From Lawsonella clevelandensis (GTDB lineage: Bacteria > Actinomycetota > Actinomycetes > Mycobacteriales > Mycobacteriaceae): a stretch of DNA of 64,000 nt. The notes under the pieces were generated by a model. The model was not told the origin of the DNA. It searched no databases and was given only the letters and a program-made list of their open reading frames with translations. Numbering within the stretch: the stretch's first letter is position 1; each line of letters starts with the position of its first letter. The DNA lies in assembly GCF_001293125.1 (NCBI RefSeq), contig NZ_CP009312.1, forward strand, positions 618,192 to 682,191, given 5' to 3'. This document shows positions 41,178 to 57,495 of this stretch, piece after piece. The translations under genes and the position numbers were made by a program.

Positions 41178-41870
41178 CTACAAGGGACGACGGCCATAAT
41201 GCAACGCCACAATGCCACCCGTTTCGTTCTGGTAGGTAGCACCATCACCCCAGCCCGCATCCTGCAACTCCACTAAAAGCTGCTCCTGGTTCGGCCAGGC
41301 GCGGATGGATTCCGCCAAGTACACATAAGCCTCCGGGTTGGAGGACACCTTAGTGGCGACCCACGGCAGCGCCTTCATGAGGTACTCCATGTACACCACC
41401 CGGAAGGGCTTCCAGGTGGGGGTGGAAAATTCGCAGACGACGAGCCGTCCACCCGGTTTCGTCACCCGCGCCATCTCGCGCAGACCTGCACGGAAGTCAG
41501 AGATATTGCGCAGGCCGAAGGAGATGGTGACAGCATCAAAGGAGCTATCCGCGAAGGGCAGGTGCATGCCGTCCCCGGCAACCTTGGGAACAGTGCGGCT
41601 CTTGCCTGCTTCCAGCATGCCGATGGAGAAGTCCGTGGCGACACACCAAGCACCGGACTTGGCCAGTTCTACGGTGGAGACGGAGGTTCCCGCGGCCAGG
41701 TCGAGGACGCGCTCCCCCGGCTGTAAGTTGAGGAGTTGGCGGGTGTGGCGACGCCACAGTTTGTCTTGGCCGAAGGACAGCACCGTGTTGGTGATGTCGT
41801 AGCGTTTGGCGACGCCGTCGAACATGCTGGCGACATCCTGTGGTTTCTTCTCTAGGCTTGCTCGTGACAC
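41178..41870 (-). CDS. menG: Demethylmenaquinone methyltransferase
   Basis: 230 residues from the GTG at 41870; the open frame is longer but overlaps the upstream gene. The SAM-binding motif [16 protein letters not shown] is at 55-70, followed by UbiE/COQ5 signatures ([37 protein letters not shown]). It methylates demethylmenaquinone, the last step of the pathway. TAACCT seven bases before the GTG suggests a leaderless transcript. It is 5 bases from the DUF3592 gene stop. Confidence 0.92.
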
Positions 41871-41875
41871 AACGC

Positions 41876-42541
41876 TCAGGTTACCCGTTTTGTGGGCAGA
41901 GCAGTAGCTGCACGCATCCGCAATATCGTGCGGGACTGGTTGACGTGGATCCCGGCGATGGTCCCCCCAAAGTGAGTGCGTCGAATGATGCCACCCGCCC
42001 GAATGCGGTAGCGGCCAATCACACAATAGGCCAGCGCGATCCAGGGGAGAACACACACCAGCAGGGACACTGCCGGCACAATAGACAGTGTCCAGCTGCG
42101 CCCGGAGATCCGCGCATAGTTGGGGTTGGTGTAGTCGTAGTCGACGCGAACTAGTTGTCCCTCCCGCACTCCGGTGGGGTAGAGGACACCGTTGCGGGGG
42201 TTCTGGACGTTGCCATCACGGTCAACGAAGCTGACATAGCGAGTGGAGCGTTCAGTGGATTCCACGCGGGCGTAGGTGCTGGCGAGGTGGCTATTGATAT
42301 GGAGATCGCTGATGGCACAACCCACCACCATGCTGACTGCCATAAGGAGCGCGAAACAGGCCAGTGCAATAAGTATAATTTGAGTGTAGCGCAACCCTTT
42401 ACGGAGACGAAGGCGGAGATAAGACATCTCGTAGTCGTCCGGCCGAAGTTCCTGTGGCAGAAGGCGAATAGTCTTCCCTAGCTTGGTAAACCAGGCCGCG
42501 ATCCGGTGTTGACGAGGAGCCGGTCTAGATGCTGCAGACAT
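41876..42541 (-). CDS. DUF3592 membrane protein
   Basis: 221 residues from the ATG at 42541 with AGGTAG upstream. Transmembrane segments at about 51-71 and 154-176 flank an extracytoplasmic domain (residues 72-150: [37 protein letters not shown]) typical of DUF3592. It starts 2 bases after the menD stop and ends next to menG. The mycobacterial counterpart (Rv0556) lies in the same place between menD and the methyltransferase. Function unknown. Confidence 0.8.
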
Positions 42542-42543
42542 CG

Positions 42544-44271
42544 CTACCTCCCCTCCAAAGTAGCCGCCAGTGCGTAGCGGTGACGACGCTGTGTGCGCAC
42601 CTCCACCAGCCGCACGCCAGCCGGTTCCGCATACCCGGTCAGGACACCCGGTAGTTCCGCCAGAGTGCACTGCTGGTAGGCCACTCCCCAACCAGCTGCC
42701 AACGCCGCAAAGTCGGCAGTGTGCGGCACTCCGAAGAGCCGCTCAAACTGGGCTTCATACGCGGGCGCACCCTGCTCCAAGGTGGCGAAAATACCGCCGC
42801 CAGTATCGTTGGCCACCAGAATCGTGAGGTTCTTGGGGGCATTTTCCAAGGTGGGCACAAGAAGCCCTCCACTGTCATGCAGAGCAGCCAAGTCGCCGAG
42901 GAACGCCACGATCGGGCCCGGGTGGTGGAAGGCTAAACCCATGGCAGTGGAGATATTGCCATCAATGCCGGAGGCGCCCCGGTTTACCCAGCAGCGAGGG
43001 CCAAGGTCTGGGTGGGTGACGGCGAGATCCCGTACTGGATTGGAGGAGCCCACGAAAAGGAGCAGCGCAGGGTCCGCGGCGACCGCCTCCCCTACCGCAT
43101 ACGCCACCTCCAGGCCACTGGGTAGCCGACCCGGGTTGTCCTCTCGTTGCCCGGCGCGCAATCTGGCCACAACATCCAGTACATGGGCATGGGCAGCCCC
43201 GTCAGCTTCCGCACAGGTAGCCAACCAGTGCTGCGGGCTCTCTCCAACGGTGGTGAGGTGAGTACAGGCCGTTTGCGCCTGCCCGGCAACATCAGCCCAC
43301 TCTGTGGGGGCAGTGGGAGCGGTAACGACGATCTGCGGAAGCGCAGGGTCCGCAAGCAGCCGGGTGACGGAGCGGTGCAGGGTGGGTTTGCCTACCACCA
43401 CAAGCTGCTGCGGGGCGTGGGCGGGGTCGGCCAGCAGTGCTGAGACACAAAGTGGGTTGAGCAGAACGCCAGATGCTCGACCACCTGGTTCACAGAGGGT
43501 GGGAACACCAGTTAAAGCGGGTAGCTCCCAACTCCCCTGTCCCGCGATCACCAATGTCCGAAGTGAGAGATCCACAGTGGCGGTGTCACGAACTTCTGTC
43601 CAAGGACGCTGCGCAGAGCGGCCCTGCCAGCAGGGGGGAAGAGGTGTCTCATCCACTGGTGGTAGTGCTGTACTTACCGGTGGTACTGCACTATCTATCG
43701 GTGATACTAGGGGCTCTCGAAAAGGCACATCAATATGGACTGGGCCGGCACTCGCCGCTGCACGCGCCATGGTTCGGCAGAGAGCAGCCCGCCAATGCGC
43801 GTTCCATCCGTGTGCATCCGCCTCTGCTACGACGTCGGAGCCGGCTGCAGGGAGTACCAGTTCGTCGACAATATCGTGGGCGAAGATACCGCGCTGCACA
43901 ATCGTTTGCTGCGCCCCCACACCCTCCATTTCGGGTGGGCGGTTAGCTGTTAAAAAGACCACCTGCCGGTGGTTGAAACGGGCCTCTACGGCGGCGGGAT
44001 GGAGATTGGCCACCGCTGACCCAGAAGTGCACACCACCGCCACTGGGGTACCGCTAGCCGCTGTCAATCCCAGTGCCAGAAAACCTGCGCTGCGCTCATC
44101 CACTCGCACATGGAGGGTAAGCCGGCCGGCAGCCTCGGCTGCGGCTAACGCAAAGGCTAGGGGCGTGGAGCGCGACCCCGGGCAGAGCACGGCCTCCTGC
44201 ATCCCGTTGCGGATGAGCTCATCCACCACCACGCGGGCGTGCAGTGTCGCAGGGGACAGGTCTAACGTCAC
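42544..44271 (-). CDS. menD: 2-succinyl-5-enolpyruvyl-6-hydroxy-3-cyclohexene-1-carboxylate synthase
   Basis: 575 residues. Start GTG 44271 is chosen because it overlaps the upstream stop by four bases (GTGA) and has GGTGAG upstream; GTG at 44286 would add five residues. MenD is ThDP-dependent and joins isochorismate to 2-oxoglutarate. Typical parts are ARVVVDELIRNGMQEAVLCP, PGSRSTPLAFAL, SANRP-like TANRPPEM and the ThDP motif near GASGIDGNISTAMG with GDLAALHDSGG. It is co-transcribed with the epimerase-like gene before it. Confidence 0.95.
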   Translation of the reverse strand: MTLDLSPATLHARVVVDELIRNGMQEAVLCPGSRSTPLAFALAAAEAAGRLTLHVRVDERSAGFLALGLTAASGTPVAVVCTSGSAVANLHPAAVEARFNHRQVVFLTANRPPEMEGVGAQQTIVQRGIFAHDIVDELVLPAAGSDVVAEADAHGWNAHWRAALCRTMARAAASAGPVHIDVPFREPLVSPIDSAVPPVSTALPPVDETPLPPCWQGRSAQRPWTEVRDTATVDLSLRTLVIAGQGSWELPALTGVPTLCEPGGRASGVLLNPLCVSALLADPAHAPQQLVVVGKPTLHRSVTRLLADPALPQIVVTAPTAPTEWADVAGQAQTACTHLTTVGESPQHWLATCAEADGAAHAHVLDVVARLRAGQREDNPGRLPSGLEVAYAVGEAVAADPALLLFVGSSNPVRDLAVTHPDLGPRCWVNRGASGIDGNISTAMGLAFHHPGPIVAFLGDLAALHDSGGLLVPTLENAPKNLTILVANDTGGGIFATLEQGAPAYEAQFERLFGVPHTADFAALAAGWGVAYQQCTLAELPGVLTGYAEPAGVRLVEVRTQRRHRYALAATLEGR

Positions 44272-45689
44272 GGTTCGCTCACCCACTCTGCCACAACCAC
44301 CGAGCTGTCCCCCACTGCGGCCAGTTGCAGCGTGTATCCATGTGGCATGTCCAGGAAGGGCATCCCCTGCGGGTCTTTGTGAAGGGGCTCTTCGGTGAGT
44401 TCTTCGGCAAGCTCTTGGGCGATGCTCGGCTGGTCCTTCTCCGGTAATTCACCGGTAGCCGCCACTAGTACGACCTCCGGGAAACTGGGAAGGGTGAGCT
44501 CTGCTGTGCCGGACAGTACCGCCACTCGGTGCAAGCCCTCCAGGACACCCACCAGTTCCAGTGTCTCCCCCGGCGCCACCAGATGCACCCGGCTGGTTAC
44601 CTGTGGGAGCTCCGTCACGACAGTGGCTGTAGGCAATTGAGGAAGCACATGCCGGCCGGCGGACAGGGCACGAAGTTGTGCTGCCCGCAACGTGGAGTAG
44701 AGCTGGAAGAGTAACTCATAGCGGGAGGAGTCGATGTGGTCGGGAATACGCCCGTCGACTGCCATCTGGCCGATCTCGTTGAGGATGATCGCGAGTTCTC
44801 CCGTCGGTTCCTTCGAGCTTTCCGCCATGGACATGGCGAAATCAGGCATTTCGCTGGTGAGAATTCGCGCTGCTTCCTGCGCGTACATGATGGTCATGGG
44901 GCGGTCTTGGGACACTCGCGGGTGTTTACCGGTGGCGACTGCTGCACAGAGCTGGGAGATCAGTGCCCCTTTGAGGGAGGGGAAACCTTCCCCAAAAATC
45001 TGGGGGAACTGCAGTTCCATGTAGCGGGCGGCGTAACCGCTGGTGGCTTGCTCTACCAACACCCCAGCTTCCGCCAATGCCTGGCCCACCTCCGTCGTAT
45101 TGCCGGCGCTGATGGAACTGGCCAACACGATAGTTTCGGGCATAGTAGGAAGGGTTTCCAGAATCTCCACCACGGTGTCGGTGGCGGTGCGAATCTCCTG
45201 GGCGAGCTCTTCATCAGTGGGGGCGTGGGTGGGATCCGGTGGGGACCACAGGCGCGCATCCGCAAGGTAGATAAGGCTGTCGTAGTGGAAGGGAGGAAGC
45301 TGCTGTGGCTCAGCTGCGCCCAGCGGTACCGCCGGCTCACTCAGCACTTCATCTGTGGCTACTGTGTCCGCCTCTGCCCCGTTCGGCTCATCGGCGCTGG
45401 TGATGGCGGGGGTGTCGACAACGGGTGCGAGTGCCTCGCTGCCGGCAGCGGCAAGTTCTTCCTCACTGGCCAAGGGGGTTCCGTCATCAGCACTATCGGA
45501 AAAGAAGTCATCGCCGTCATCAGCCACCTCCTCGCCGTCATCGACGATCACATCGATGTCATCGTCGGTGGGAATAGTGGGGAGGAACTCCAACGGATCC
45601 ACCACCTCTAGCGTGCGCCCCACGTGGGCGGCTTGCACCTGCATATGCCAGGCCAGCACACTGCGACTGCCACACACTAGAGATGCCAT
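44268..45689 (-). CDS. Degenerate NAD-epimerase/Cap5F-like protein with acidic insert and cupin-like C terminus
   Basis: 473 residues from ATG 45689 (GAGG 9 bases upstream; an ATG at 45704 would add five residues). The N terminus (SLVCGSRSVLAWHMQVQAA) looks like a Rossmann beta-alpha unit whose glycine motif is lost. Residues about 40-130 are an Asp/Glu/Ala-rich, probably disordered insert. Residues 185-280 (TIVLASSISAGN, YMELQFPQIFGEGFPSLKGA) resemble the extended-SDR domain of WbjC/Cap5F polysaccharide enzymes, but the Tyr-x-x-x-Lys pair is not present where expected. A cupin-like part follows (VAPGETLELVGVLEGLHRVA). The comparison is by eye; function is unknown, perhaps a pseudoenzyme for surface polysaccharide. 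It is coupled to menD by a 4-base overlap. Confidence 0.6.
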   Translation of the reverse strand: MASLVCGSRSVLAWHMQVQAAHVGRTLEVVDPLEFLPTIPTDDDIDVIVDDGEEVADDGDDFFSDSADDGTPLASEEELAAAGSEALAPVVDTPAITSADEPNGAEADTVATDEVLSEPAVPLGAAEPQQLPPFHYDSLIYLADARLWSPPDPTHAPTDEELAQEIRTATDTVVEILETLPTMPETIVLASSISAGNTTEVGQALAEAGVLVEQATSGYAARYMELQFPQIFGEGFPSLKGALISQLCAAVATGKHPRVSQDRPMTIMYAQEAARILTSEMPDFAMSMAESSKEPTGELAIILNEIGQMAVDGRIPDHIDSSRYELLFQLYSTLRAAQLRALSAGRHVLPQLPTATVVTELPQVTSRVHLVAPGETLELVGVLEGLHRVAVLSGTAELTLPSFPEVVLVAATGELPEKDQPSIAQELAEELTEEPLHKDPQGMPFLDMPHGYTLQLAAVGDSSVVVAEWVSEP

Positions 45690-45749
45690 GGTCTTCATCC
45701 TCATTCTGCGGCCTTGCGGCCGCGGTCAAGTAACCCGTGTGGTCTCAGA

Positions 45750-46847
45750 TTACCCAGAAACACTTGTCCCTGGGGAGTGGCCAGCCTCCACAACACCCTG
45801 CTCCGCATCCGCTTCGCCGGAGGGATCCGGTGCAGTATGGTTCGCAGGCGGGTCTGGGATAGGCCAGGCCGAGAAAATACAAGCAGGCACCATTACCGGC
45901 ACAATCGCCCACAAGGGTGCATCCGCCCCACCACAGGCATAGGCAATTCCCACCGACACCAGCTGCACCAGCCCTACGATCCCCACGGTTTTACGGTGCG
46001 ACCCAAAATACCGTTGCAGCTTCTGGTAGTTATGCTCGCGGTGAATAAGCATCGGGTTGAGCCGATAGAACATTCGATAAATAAAGGTAAAGAGCACATC
46101 CGTCCAGTAGACGGCAAGTGGGGCAATAGTGGCCGGAATGGACACCCCCCGCACCATCAGTACCACGCACATCACCAAGGTGGCCGCACCGGCTACATAG
46201 GCGCCGCTCTCCCCTGGGAAAATGCGGGCCCGCGGAAGGTTCCACGGCAGGAATCCCAGAAAGCCGGCAATGAAGATGAGAGTGAGAATCTGCAGTGTCT
46301 TATCGGTACAATCGCGGCACAAATAGAGTGTCCACACACCACAGATGATGACGTAAAGCGACGTGATGCCATTAATACCGTCCATGAAGTTGGCGGCATT
46401 CGTTACCCACACCGTAAACGGCACGATGAGGATGGCTGTCGTCACCATGGAGGCCATGCTGTACTCGATGGGACCCGTCACCATGAGATAGATGGTGGTT
46501 CCGGACATTGCCACCCCGCCCAAGGCCAACAGCACCACACCGGCAGTCGTATTGAGGCCATAAATGTCGTCGAAGATACCCACTGCGGTGAACCACGCCA
46601 CCACGATGCCCACCAGCATGAAGAGCGGCGGAATTTGTTCCCACCCCTCCACAATAAGGTCGATGACATGCACCATAATTCCGAACAGGATGGCGAGGGA
46701 AATACCTATACCGCCGCCGCGCACCGTGGGAATAGAGTGTGCGCGGCGATTTCCCGGCATATCCACCAGGCCTTGGCCCCCGAGGAAGGGCAACAGGAGA
46801 ATTGGCGCAATAAGGGACAGCACCAGCGCGATAAGCGGTCCCAACAT
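45750..46847 (-). CDS. Polyprenyl-phosphate sugar-1-phosphate transferase (WecA/MraY family)
   Basis: 365 residues with about ten membrane segments. The family motifs are present: DMPGNRRAHSIPTVRGGG (29-46), the Mg-binding VGIFDDIYGLN (89-99), NAANFMDGINGIT (150-162) and FPGESGAYVAG. This superfamily moves a sugar-1-phosphate from a UDP-sugar to a lipid phosphate to start a glycan; WecA/TagO/WbpL-type. It is most likely not MraY itself, which normally lies in the murein cluster. The neighbouring epimerase-like gene supports a role in surface polysaccharide. The C-terminal 40 residues are polar. GAAGGTAG precedes the start. Confidence 0.8.
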   Translation of the reverse strand: MLGPLIALVLSLIAPILLLPFLGGQGLVDMPGNRRAHSIPTVRGGGIGISLAILFGIMVHVIDLIVEGWEQIPPLFMLVGIVVAWFTAVGIFDDIYGLNTTAGVVLLALGGVAMSGTTIYLMVTGPIEYSMASMVTTAILIVPFTVWVTNAANFMDGINGITSLYVIICGVWTLYLCRDCTDKTLQILTLIFIAGFLGFLPWNLPRARIFPGESGAYVAGAATLVMCVVLMVRGVSIPATIAPLAVYWTDVLFTFIYRMFYRLNPMLIHREHNYQKLQRYFGSHRKTVGIVGLVQLVSVGIAYACGGADAPLWAIVPVMVPACIFSAWPIPDPPANHTAPDPSGEADAEQGVVEAGHSPGTSVSG

Positions 46848-46943: not shown

Positions 46944-48011
46944 CTAGCAGGGGGAGGTGACGACGTTCGCGAGATGAGTTGCGAGCGGGTAGCAGCGCTC
47001 CAACCTCTCCCTCCACCACTGTTCACGCCCCACAGGAGCACGCAGCTCCTCCAGTCGGGCAGGGGCAGGGGCTGCTATCCGATAGGGCAAGTGGCCATCA
47101 ACCAGCTGATGCGGTTCACAGACGTCCGCAGTGAAGAAACTGCCCGTGCCCAGCCCACAATCCGCCACCACCGGGAGGGCGGCGGCAGCGGCCAGGCCCG
47201 CGTTCATTCCGACCGCCGAGTCGAGAGCACTGGACACTGTAAGAGGGTACGGAATGTGTGAGGCAAGGCGCAGCAGCGCCCGTGGACCTCCCAGCGGGGC
47301 CGCTTTCACGACCACGCGATCCACTGCCCCAGCGGCGATAACGCGGAGCGGGTCGGTAGCGCGGCGGATTGACTCGTCAGCGGCTAGTGGGATGCTGCCG
47401 GCTAATGTGTCGTGGAGTTCCACAAGCTCGGGGACGGTGCGGCAGGGTTGTTCGGCATAGTCGAAGAAATCGCTGCCGCCGGCCGCCTCCACAATGCGGG
47501 GGAGGATGCTGCGGGCCTCCGCAACTGTCCACCCCATATTGGCGTCGACACGCAGCCGTGCGCTGGGTGCATAGTGGTGGACGAGGGCCACCCGGGCAAC
47601 ATCATCCGCCCAGCTCTGCCCACGTTCGGCAACTTTGATTTTGAAGGTGCGTACCCCGGCAAAGTCCTGCTGCACGAGGCGCCGAATAGTGTTCTGTTGA
47701 GTGACGACGTCGAGCGCCGGGATAGTGCCGTTGACAGGGATCTGGGTGCGGACTGCGGGGGGTGGGCCAAGCCATGCCATCTCGAGGCCGCTGGCTAACC
47801 AGTGGGCAGCCTCCTCATCCCCGTATTCGGGAAAGGCTCCGAACTCTCCCCACCCGGCGGGTCCCGCGAAGAGCAGCATTTCGCGGTGGTTGACACCCCG
47901 GAAGGTGACCCGCATGGGCAGGCTCACCACGAAGGCCCGCTCCTGCAAGTCGGCGAGGGTGGGTAAGGGGGTGACGGAGAATGTGGCGGAGGTGGGTGTA
48001 TCGGCGGGCAT
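46944..48011 (-). CDS. menC: o-succinylbenzoate synthase
   Basis: 355 residues. MenC is an enolase-superfamily dehydratase that forms o-succinylbenzoate. The catalytic Lys pair KIK (124-126), the metal ligands Asp156 (RVDANMG), Glu187 (YAEQP) and Asp212 (AADES), and Lys236 (VVVKAAPLGG) are all conserved. The ribosome-binding site is weak. It is divergent from menB with a 76-base gap that should hold both promoters. Confidence 0.94.
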   Translation of the reverse strand: MPADTPTSATFSVTPLPTLADLQERAFVVSLPMRVTFRGVNHREMLLFAGPAGWGEFGAFPEYGDEEAAHWLASGLEMAWLGPPPAVRTQIPVNGTIPALDVVTQQNTIRRLVQQDFAGVRTFKIKVAERGQSWADDVARVALVHHYAPSARLRVDANMGWTVAEARSILPRIVEAAGGSDFFDYAEQPCRTVPELVELHDTLAGSIPLAADESIRRATDPLRVIAAGAVDRVVVKAAPLGGPRALLRLASHIPYPLTVSSALDSAVGMNAGLAAAAALPVVADCGLGTGSFFTADVCEPHQLVDGHLPYRIAAPAPARLEELRAPVGREQWWRERLERCYPLATHLANVVTSPC

Positions 48012-53773: not shown

Positions 53774-54300
53774 CGTCCAAAACTCCTGCTAGCTTCTACT
53801 TCTCTCGCGGCAGTGAGAGCACCCTCACCGGATCACCACGTGATGCAAGGAGCGACAATCACGACGGTACAGTATCGTCGTCTATCCCATCGGCACCTCA
53901 CGCTGGCAAGTGCGCGCACTCTCGGCCTGGCCACTACGCTCCCCTCCCTCTCCACCCCCTCCCTCTCCACGTCTATCGGAGGTGACTGTTCAGCAGTAGC
54001 GACAACCCACCATCCCTGGGTACGCCGGTCAACTTTCTACAGGGTTACGGCAATGGTTGCCGTCGCTGCGGCATGGCGAAAATCTCGTCTCCCATTCGTA
54101 AGTATTTTTTCGCTTTTCCGAAACTCAGCAGGTCACGGCAAAGATCGATTAAGAAACTGTGACACGCCCTTTCTGAAGTGCGATATACACTTGCCATCTG
54201 TGCACGTCAGAGTACGAAAAGCAGGGTTCTACTTTTCGATAAGGTGAAGGAGACACCGTGTTCTCGCCACGGCACCACAACTCTGCGTGAGGAGCAAAAC
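53774..54300 (+). other. 527-base region before the GH35 gene
   Basis: A 144-codon open frame (53813-54247) has no ribosome-binding site or similarity and is not called. There is a short direct repeat CCCTCCCTCTCCA near 53942 and 53955. The last 150 bases should hold the GH35 promoter: TGTGAC, 17 bases, CGATAT (about 54151-54179) is a possible but weak match. Otherwise nothing is recognised. Confidence 0.4.
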
Positions 54301-57300
54301 ATGGCATTTGCCACCAAGCACCCGATGTCTCGGGTGGTTTCCTTGGCAAGCGCTGTAGCTCTGAGTTTGGCCACCCTGGTTCCCATGTCCTCCATGGCAC
54401 CAGCCTCCGCCGCACCTCAGGCTGCGCCGTCTTCCCAATGGATCAAGTCAACCAACTATAAGTACCCAGGAAACGATGGCAAACGCCACAAAGTCACCTG
54501 GGATAAGTACTCCTACAAAGTCGACGGCCAGCGCCTCAACATCTGGTCCGGCGAAGTCCACTACTGGCGGCTTCCCTCCCCCAACCAATGGCGTGACGTC
54601 CTCCAGAAGATGAAGGCCGCCGGCTTCAACGCCGTCTCCTTCTACTTCTTCTGGGGCTACCACCAGAGCGCCCCTGATGCCCCCTTCGACTTCTCCGGCG
54701 TCCGCGATATGGACCTGCTGCTCCGCATGGCTGCAGAGGAAGGCCTCTACGTTATCGCCCGCCCCGGCCCCTACATCAACGCCGAAATCTCCATGGGTGG
54801 TATGCCCGCCTGGCAGACCAACAGTGCTCTGCCGCTCCGTACCGCCTGGGATAAGACCAACTGGAAAGAGCAGCGTGCCTGGCTGCGCGCCATCAACCGC
54901 ATCCTGGCCCGCCACCAGGTAACCAATGGCGGCGGCTCCGTCCTCATGTACCAGGCGGAGAACGAAGAACTATTCTCCCTCGGCCCCTACGCCGACTACG
55001 TAAAGAAAATCATCAAGGCAGCCAAGGAAGACGGCATCAACGTCCCCATCTTCCACAACGACTACGCCCCCTTGAGCAACTGGGCCTTTAACACCAAGGA
55101 CACCGGGCTAGATGTCTACTCCTACGACGACTACCCCATCCGCTTCGACTGCTCCGCCGAACGCCAGGAACTCAGTGACCACAACTGGCACATTGACCCG
55201 GCGTTCAAGGCAGCCAACAATTCCCCGCACTTCATCGCAGAAGCCCAGGGCGGCGCCTTCACCCCGTGGGGTGCCTCCTTTAACGCCTCCGCCTGCGAGA
55301 AGTTTGTGGATGCCAACTTCTACCGCCAGTGGGCGGCTCTGAACAACGGCGCCGGTGTTACCGCCTTCAACTACTACATGATCTTCGGCGGCACGAACTG
55401 GGGCTGGACCGGCTCCGCCCACTCCGGCTTTACCTCCTACGACTACGGCGCCTCCATTACCGAGGACCGCAACCTGCGCGACAAACTGTCCGTGCAGAAG
55501 GAAAACGGCTACTTCCACCGCGCCTTCCCGCAGCTGGTGGTTATGGATGCCACCTCCGACCCGGCCGTCAACAATGTGTACGGCGCCAAGGTGAAGAGCT
55601 ACCTGCGAACCTCCGCTGGTATGCGTAACCTGTCCATGTCCGGCAAGGGCTCGCAGTACATGGCATTCCGACTGGCCAGCTCCAATGACACCACCCTCAC
55701 CAAGTTCACCACCAGCCTGACCACCTACGCCCCGAACGGACAGAAAGTCACCTTCAACCGGGTGCCGCAGGAAGGCCAACTCATTCTGCACGGCCGCGAC
55801 GCCCTGCAGATGCCGGTGGACTTCACGATCGGCGATTGGGGAGCCTACTACTCCACCGGCCTGCTGTTCTTCAATTCCTCCATGAAAGGCCGCCCGCTAG
55901 CCGTGCTGACCGGCACCGCTGGCGACCGTGGCGAAATTGTGCTGCACGCCCCCACGAAGCCAGTGGTGAAGAGCGGCAACAAGTCCGTCACCTACACCTG
56001 GGACAAGACCAAGAAGCAGCTGCGCATCAACTACGACTGGGGCTTCCCCTACGACATCAAGGTATCCATGAAAGGTAAGGCCCCGCTGACCCTCCGCATC
56101 GCGGACCGTCACAGCCTCATCCGCTCCTGGTCCCCGCAGAACTGGCTGAACGGCAAGATACAGGGCATCCTCGTGGAGAACGCGGACCTCGTCCGCTCCG
56201 TCCGCTACGAGGGCACTACCGCGCACCTGGTGGGCTCTACCACCAAGCCGCAGAACATCAAGATCTGGCTCCCCCAGGGCATCACCAATGCCACCTGGAA
56301 TGGCCAAGCCCTGCCGTTGGAAAAGGCTGGAACCCACTACCGCGCTGCCCTCCCCGGACCCGCCGCTGTCTCCGTTCCGAGGCTGAAGTGGGTGAAGCAC
56401 GAGGAAGGCTACGAAGCCAACCCGAACTTCGACGATTCCCGGTGGCGCGTCGCCAACATCAAACATCCGAAGAACTTCCGGCAGGGCCCAGGCTTCTTCC
56501 AGGATGTTGTCCTGGATGCCAACGCCTACAACTTCCATGAAGGTGACATTTGGTACCGCGCCCACTACACCGCCGCCACTGACGACCCCGCTATCTGGGT
56601 GAAGGCCTTCGGCGCCCCGGGCTCCAACTTCCTGGTGTGGATGAATGGCAAGTACGTGGGTGCCTCCGCTGCCGTGAAGGGTAGCGTAGCAGACACCGGC
56701 CTGGACAACGAGTCCTCCAAGGACCCGACCGCCAACCTATCGGAAAGCCCCAAGTCCATCAGCTTCACAGTGCCACGTGGCACTGTGAAGAAGGGACAGA
56801 AGGTTGTCCTCTCAATCCTGCTGCGTAACAACGGCCAGCGTGTGGACTGGGAAGGCACCGGCAACAACCTGCATGCGATGGGTGTGCTGGATGCCCGCCT
56901 GGGTAACCAGGGCAAGGTGACGTGGAAGATCCAGGGTGCCCGCGGCGGCATCCACCCGGTTGATAATGTTCGTGGAATCTACAACAACGGTGGTCTCTAC
57001 GGCGAGCGTGCTGGCTGGCACCTGCCGGGCTTCCCCGACAACACTTGGAAGCCGGCTGCCACCATGCACGCCAGCAAGCCGGGTGTCACCTGGTACCGCT
57101 CCGACTTCACCCTCAACTTCCCCGCCAACCAGGACGTCATGCTGCGGCTGAACGTCAAGTCCAAGCGTTTCCACCCGAATCGCAAGGACAAGGCACGCAC
57201 CGTCATGTTCGTGAACGGCTGGAATGTGGGAACCTGGGTGGGCAATGTGGGCCCGCAAGAGTCCTTCACCATCCCTGCCGGTTTCCTTAACCGCAACGGC

Positions 57301-57495
57301 AAGAACGAAATTGCTATCGCGGTGACGGCAGAGGGTACCGGCTACGGCCCGGAAACCATCCAGCTTGGTGTCATCGGCAACTGGCTGGGTTCCATCCCGT
57401 GGAAGGAGAACAAGGCTCCTGGCTACCAGCAGCTGAAGCACAACCTGATGGCAGCCTATCCGCAGATTCGGATGGCAACCGTCAAACAGAGCTAA
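54301..57495 (+). CDS. Secreted glycoside hydrolase family 35 beta-galactosidase
   Basis: 1064 residues from the ATG at 54301 (GAGGAG 6-7 bases upstream). A signal peptide covers residues 1-38 (cleavage ASA-APQ). The GH35 TIM barrel (about 70-400) has WSGEVHYWRLP, the acid/base Glu222 (MYQAENEE), the nucleophile Glu314 (HFIAEAQGGAF) and MIFGGTNWGWT. Several beta-sandwich domains follow, including jelly-roll galactose-binding types near 730-1050. There is no LPXTG or other anchor, so it is released. It should remove terminal beta-galactose from host or other glycans. It is a single gene closed by a strong terminator. Confidence 0.9.
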   Translation: MAFATKHPMSRVVSLASAVALSLATLVPMSSMAPASAAPQAAPSSQWIKSTNYKYPGNDGKRHKVTWDKYSYKVDGQRLNIWSGEVHYWRLPSPNQWRDVLQKMKAAGFNAVSFYFFWGYHQSAPDAPFDFSGVRDMDLLLRMAAEEGLYVIARPGPYINAEISMGGMPAWQTNSALPLRTAWDKTNWKEQRAWLRAINRILARHQVTNGGGSVLMYQAENEELFSLGPYADYVKKIIKAAKEDGINVPIFHNDYAPLSNWAFNTKDTGLDVYSYDDYPIRFDCSAERQELSDHNWHIDPAFKAANNSPHFIAEAQGGAFTPWGASFNASACEKFVDANFYRQWAALNNGAGVTAFNYYMIFGGTNWGWTGSAHSGFTSYDYGASITEDRNLRDKLSVQKENGYFHRAFPQLVVMDATSDPAVNNVYGAKVKSYLRTSAGMRNLSMSGKGSQYMAFRLASSNDTTLTKFTTSLTTYAPNGQKVTFNRVPQEGQLILHGRDALQMPVDFTIGDWGAYYSTGLLFFNSSMKGRPLAVLTGTAGDRGEIVLHAPTKPVVKSGNKSVTYTWDKTKKQLRINYDWGFPYDIKVSMKGKAPLTLRIADRHSLIRSWSPQNWLNGKIQGILVENADLVRSVRYEGTTAHLVGSTTKPQNIKIWLPQGITNATWNGQALPLEKAGTHYRAALPGPAAVSVPRLKWVKHEEGYEANPNFDDSRWRVANIKHPKNFRQGPGFFQDVVLDANAYNFHEGDIWYRAHYTAATDDPAIWVKAFGAPGSNFLVWMNGKYVGASAAVKGSVADTGLDNESSKDPTANLSESPKSISFTVPRGTVKKGQKVVLSILLRNNGQRVDWEGTGNNLHAMGVLDARLGNQGKVTWKIQGARGGIHPVDNVRGIYNNGGLYGERAGWHLPGFPDNTWKPAATMHASKPGVTWYRSDFTLNFPANQDVMLRLNVKSKRFHPNRKDKARTVMFVNGWNVGTWVGNVGPQESFTIPAGFLNRNGKNEIAIAVTAEGTGYGPETIQLGVIGNWLGSIPWKENKAPGYQQLKHNLMAAYPQIRMATVKQS

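Follow-up and report, generated by a model that had tools for sequence, protein, structure and literature searches.

The window, a 64,000-nucleotide stretch of Lawsonella clevelandensis DNA, is part of a single-contig genome of 1.86 Mb. Its men genes on the minus strand are arranged in the order menC, a gene for a 365-aa transferase, a gene for a 473-aa protein, menD, a gene for a small membrane protein, ubiE, and a polyprenyl synthase gene. The two ORFs between menC and menD lie exactly where an initial annotation of this DNA had placed them (Table 1). The ORF preceding menD encodes 478 aa from its first ATG (45704) and 473 aa from the ATG at 45689. Its stop codon and the GTG start of menD (44271) share four bases, GTGA, in agreement with the overlap described in that annotation. 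The comparison was made between two species only, the window genome and a sister metagenome-assembled genome (MAG), 'Mycobacteriales bacterium AS05jafATM_72' (85% complete), in which the shared bases are ATGA. Both frames are open and without internal stops in the window and in the sister genome.

Table 1. Genes and protein parts of the menC-menD region (window coordinates).
Feature	Position	Strand	Basis or remark
menC	46944..48011	-	NF002782; upstream neighbour
MraY/WecA-superfamily (PF00953) transferase, 365 aa, putatively WbpL/WbcO type	45750..46847	-	PF00953, motif HREHxYQ
Cap5F/WbjC-like protein, degenerate	44268..45704	-	ORF, PDB match, profile, structure model
Rossmann beta-alpha-beta start, residues 1-45	45555..45689	-	Alignment; NAD loop degenerate
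Acidic insert, residues 46-136	45282..45554	-	Composition, pLDDT
SDR core, residues 137-345	44655..45281	-	Alignment
Cupin-like C-terminal domain, residues 346-473	44271..44654	-	Alignment, structure model
menD	42544..44271	-	GTG start; 4-base overlap with the stop of the degenerate Cap5F-like gene

The 473-aa protein is homologous to, though far diverged from, the two-domain (SDR and cupin) capsule enzyme Cap5F/WbjC. No family of Pfam, NCBIfam, or PHROGs was matched by its sequence, and in a phmmer search of the PDB it matched only Cap5F of S. aureus (E 0.0014). Using hhalign, the profile of the two orthologues scored 99.1% against ten bona fide Cap5Fs and 99.6% against Mycobacteriales Cap5Fs (residues 1-473 versus 1-351), and the controls (Cap5E, RmlB, RmlD, another SDR, Cap5G, and reversed queries) gave 0-0.4%. 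The family guess of the initial annotation was thus borne out by the profile match against the reversed and other-SDR controls, with CapF also at the top of the structure search. The model NF047837 and the PDB entries 3ST7 and 2ZKL represent Cap5F/CapF/WbjC, the UDP-2-acetamido-2,6-dideoxy-beta-L-arabino-hexul-4-ose reductase. The 473-aa protein was not matched by NF047837, PF14667, or PF01370, the first two giving no match at E<=1. True Cap5Fs were above the cut-off of PF14667 (about 1e-43 to 1e-45), and the one true Cap5F tested against NF047837 reached 233 bits, which is below that model's own 500-bit cut-off. The branch between the protein and all other Cap5Fs is 3.3 changes per site long. 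A plasmid search with the 473-aa protein returned one weak match, an ordinary Cap5F in Deinococcus. Intact-looking Cap5F homologues are encoded by IMG/VR viral contigs (L111-L119).

An AlphaFold2 model built with nine Cap5F rows (from viral contigs) in the alignment had a pLDDT of 68.5, with most of the core at 75-90, and a pTM of 0.66; owing to these rows it is biased to the CapF fold and is not independent of the sequence-based assignment. It comprises a Rossmann-type N-terminal domain, a low-confidence insert within this domain (residues 46-131 in the model), and an all-beta C-terminal domain. CapF (3st7) was the top match of this model in Foldseek (E 3e-18) and in VIA-align (Z 18.1, 294 residues, rmsd 13.1, model residues 1..472), and the rmsd is read as the two domains being oriented differently in the model. 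With the two orthologues alone, the order of helices and strands was similar, at a confidence too low for use (pLDDT 43.9).

The domain composition proposed in the initial annotation, namely a Rossmann unit without its glycine motif, an acidic insert of about 90 residues, an SDR-like core without Tyr-x-x-x-Lys, and a cupin-like end, was recovered in all four parts. The NAD loop, GAxGFLGWH in the Cap5Fs compared, is GSRSVLAWH in the window and GDRSFLSWH in the sister genome. In both species, V201 and L205 stand in place of the Tyr and Lys of YGxxK (V201-GQA-L205 in the window), and Ser192 preserves the Ser/Thr of the SDR triad. The cupin fold is backed by the profile and the structure model, and a further loss, unstated in the initial annotation, concerns its metal ligands: the HxH, the Glu, and the later His (pattern RGxHxHxxKxER; His290 of CapF and its partners) are conserved in neither species. 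The glycine loop, YGxxK, and the cupin pattern are kept in all 14 further Mycobacteriales Cap5Fs that were read, one of which has Phe in place of the Tyr. In CapF, the cupin Zn ion (His290) is required for epimerisation, and the SDR domain carries out the NADPH reduction (PMC5393024). Since the known catalytic sites are gone in both species, loss of the known catalysis is strongly expected from the alignment, and we infer a loss of all catalysis. The acidic insert has 25 D/E and no K/R, with a pLDDT below 50 in the model, and is probably disordered.

The Cap5F-like proteins of the two species are 47.6% identical overall. Identity is highest over residues 137-290 (62.7%), falls to 42.7% in the cupin, and is lowest over residues 51-136 (24.6%); the SDR core holds a nearly invariant 20-residue segment, GKxPRVSQxRPMTIMYAQE. 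The corresponding values are 53.1% for the transferase and 61.6% for MenD. The Nei-Gojobori dN/dS estimates, with dS close to saturation, were 0.50/1.88 for the Cap5F-like protein (dN 0.36 for its core), 0.45/1.91 for the transferase, and 0.35/2.11 for menD. This substitution pattern indicates purifying selection on the Cap5F-like protein, and dN far below dS together with intact frames makes decay of its gene unlikely.

The neighbouring gene had been annotated as a glycan-initiating transferase of the WecA/MraY type, which is consistent with its match to PF00953 (78.7 bits, cut-off 27). The genome has three PF00953 proteins: this transferase beside menC, a canonical WecA adjoining the ATP synthase genes, and a canonical MraY in the division cluster. 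More precisely, the transferase appears to be of the WbpL/WbcO type, judging from a shared motif and a tree with long branches. It has HREHxYQ, corresponding to HRxHxYQ of the WbpL/WbcO group versus HxHH of WecA, and groups with WbpL-like sequences at 89/89 (83/84 for the WbpL/WbcO placement) in a tree where long branches meet. At the catalytic site, the GD motif has Asp in every sequence compared except those of the two species, which have Glu (GESGAY / GEAGAY); as this site is otherwise invariant, the transferase may itself be inactive. Among the genomes searched, its closest match outside the genus (about 26% identity) is placed divergently beside Cap5E-F-G in genome G034. A P. aeruginosa plasmid carries wbjB, wbjC, wbjD, wbpL, and wbpM, identified by order and products, in one O-antigen-type cluster. 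From these two arrangements, both genes plausibly come from one FucNAc module, and we infer a modular origin of the pair.

The question raised in the initial annotation of whether the pair is conserved next to menD received a divided answer. Within the genus, 2/2 genomes keep the gene order (menC-transferase-protein-menD) and the 4-base overlap with menD; outside it, neither gene was found near menD in any of the 19 other genera examined, some of which carry unrelated genes between menC and menD. Synteny led to the rejection of vertical inheritance of the pair within the order's men cluster. No wider degenerate family adjoining menD emerged from searches of 301 family-level and 397 order-level genomes, in which the sister genome was the only strong match besides the window. 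An MgtA-like glycosyltransferase gene sits between the small membrane protein gene and ubiE in some other Mycobacteriales genera. It is missing here (41178-42691), and elsewhere the genome has only distant homologues, of which the best is 35% identical across roughly half the length. The presence of a glycan gene among the men genes is thus not unusual in Mycobacteriales, and simple gene clustering, one of the options of the initial annotation, is the more economical explanation of the location.

Neither genome of the genus has the WecB/Cap5G family (PF02350), which the control genomes do have, and Cap5E was not found in the genome, the best Cap5E-like match being RmlB; the absence of these enzymes in the sister carries less weight because it is an 85% complete MAG. 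With WecB/Cap5G absent and no Cap5E found, UDP-L-FucNAc synthesis is not expected, and an active FucNAc pathway was rejected. The missing partners also weaken the proposal of a new surface-polysaccharide module made in the initial annotation.

Since the catalytic residues are gone and yet purifying selection acts, the Cap5F-like protein is regarded as a pseudoenzyme. The best explanation, held with moderate confidence, is that it was retained from an L-FucNAc capsule module and probably serves as a non-catalytic partner of the transferase. Its ancestor would have been a Cap5F/WbjC enzyme of UDP-L-FucNAc synthesis, bifunctional as cupin epimerase and SDR reductase, and its gene would have become part of the men operon in the common ancestor of the genus. 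Together with the WbpL/WbcO-type transferase, the protein would be the remnant of a module for surface polysaccharide that has lost its remaining enzymes. It now lacks the residues that bind NAD(P)H, transfer the proton in the SDR domain, and hold the cupin metal, and yet is under purifying selection. Conservation in two sister species suggests that the protein has been retained for some non-catalytic function. A partner or scaffold role for the transferase is the most likely mechanism, with about an even chance of being correct, and is suggested by adjacency, co-retention, and the precedent of MAT2B, an SDR-fold regulatory subunit of methionine adenosyltransferase and partner of MAT2A (PMC3793261). 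A regulatory role of MAT2B, in contrast to a stabilising one, is itself disputed (PMC8638259). By binding a UDP-sugar, or the transferase on its cytoplasmic side, the SDR-cupin scaffold might stabilise, localise, or tune the adjacent enzyme, as MAT2B does for MAT2A. The menD overlap would then reflect shared transcription and coupled translation without a biochemical role in quinone synthesis, and the men location is probably a matter of operon sharing.

The strong conservation of the SDR core with its nearly invariant segment, and the retention of Ser192, would also suit a repurposed enzyme, in which the SDR-cupin fold does another reaction, or senses a nucleotide sugar, through new active-site residues (e.g., those of this segment), and the transferase uses the product. 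Such repurposing is considered unlikely, because the dinucleotide loop, the Tyr, the Lys, and the cupin ligands are all lost in both species and the precursor enzymes of the known pathway are missing. It is rather improbable that the Cap5F-like protein is a regulator or partner of menaquinone synthesis, binding MenD or another Men enzyme in a ratio fixed by the overlap. Gene order and the stop/start overlap are indeed kept, but 4-base overlaps are common in operons, and the position predicts little, given the unrelated genes between menC and menD and the downstream MgtA-like glycosyltransferase in other genera. The regulatory module linked to quinone synthesis that the initial annotation had envisaged is likewise improbable, with adjacency and overlap as its evidence.

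Slow decay, with both genes as passengers left over from a lost capsule locus and retained only because disrupting them would be polar on menD, is improbable. The motif loss in the Cap5F-like protein, the Asp-to-Glu change in the transferase, and the fast divergence of the cupin domain and the insert (43% and 25% identity) would fit this course. Against it, dN is well below dS over the core, the cupin, and the transferase, the core is highly conserved, and both frames are intact in species whose MenD differs at 38% of residues; moreover, dead genes would be expected to disappear from a genome of 1.86 Mb. A more elaborate variant of the partner role appears very improbable: the acidic-armed two-domain pseudoenzyme would be a dedicated regulatory or scaffold subunit of the transferase, and its co-translation with MenD would link two users of one polyprenyl supply, menaquinone synthesis and glycan synthesis with its demand for polyprenyl carrier. 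An intact, highly diverged Cap5F still making the UDP-L-FucNAc precursor is strongly disfavoured: its two-domain order equals that of Cap5F, but every tested catalytic site fails, the three family models are unmatched while true Cap5Fs match, and the WecB family is absent.

Compared with known systems, the pseudoenzyme reading concerns a protein that shares with Cap5F/CapF/WbjC an SDR domain followed by a cupin over the full length, with a specific profile and structural match. It differs in the loss of the glycine motif, Tyr-x-x-x-Lys, and the cupin metal ligands, in the acidic insert after the first beta-alpha-beta unit, and in the location of its gene in the men operon without CapE/CapG, whereas Cap5Fs elsewhere are found with WbpL-type transferases in capsule or O-antigen loci. 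The putative WbpL/WbcO-type transferase has the DD, NFMDGxxG, and HRxHxYQ motifs of these polyprenyl-phosphate sugar-1-phosphate transferases, which elsewhere are partners of FucNAc pathway genes; unlike them, it has GE for GD and a men-operon site, and canonical WecA and MraY are also present. The likeness to MAT2B, an SDR-family protein acting as a partner subunit and not as a free enzyme, is an analogy only, as the Cap5F-like protein belongs to another subfamily, has a cupin, and occurs in another domain of life with another partner. A Cap5F homologue with both active sites lost and yet selectively maintained would be a bacterial bifunctional sugar enzyme turned non-catalytic, in an organism that probably is a clinically relevant anaerobe associated with the skin. 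If the transferase is controlled by this protein, control of the first step of glycan synthesis by a pseudoenzyme could be put to the test at this locus; if the protein is only a passenger, the interest would be modest.

Just downstream of menE-menA, the window also encodes a large predicted secreted protein of up to 1105 aa (54178-57495) that is beta-galactosidase-like and has a counterpart at the equivalent place in the sister genome (L050 11546-14713).
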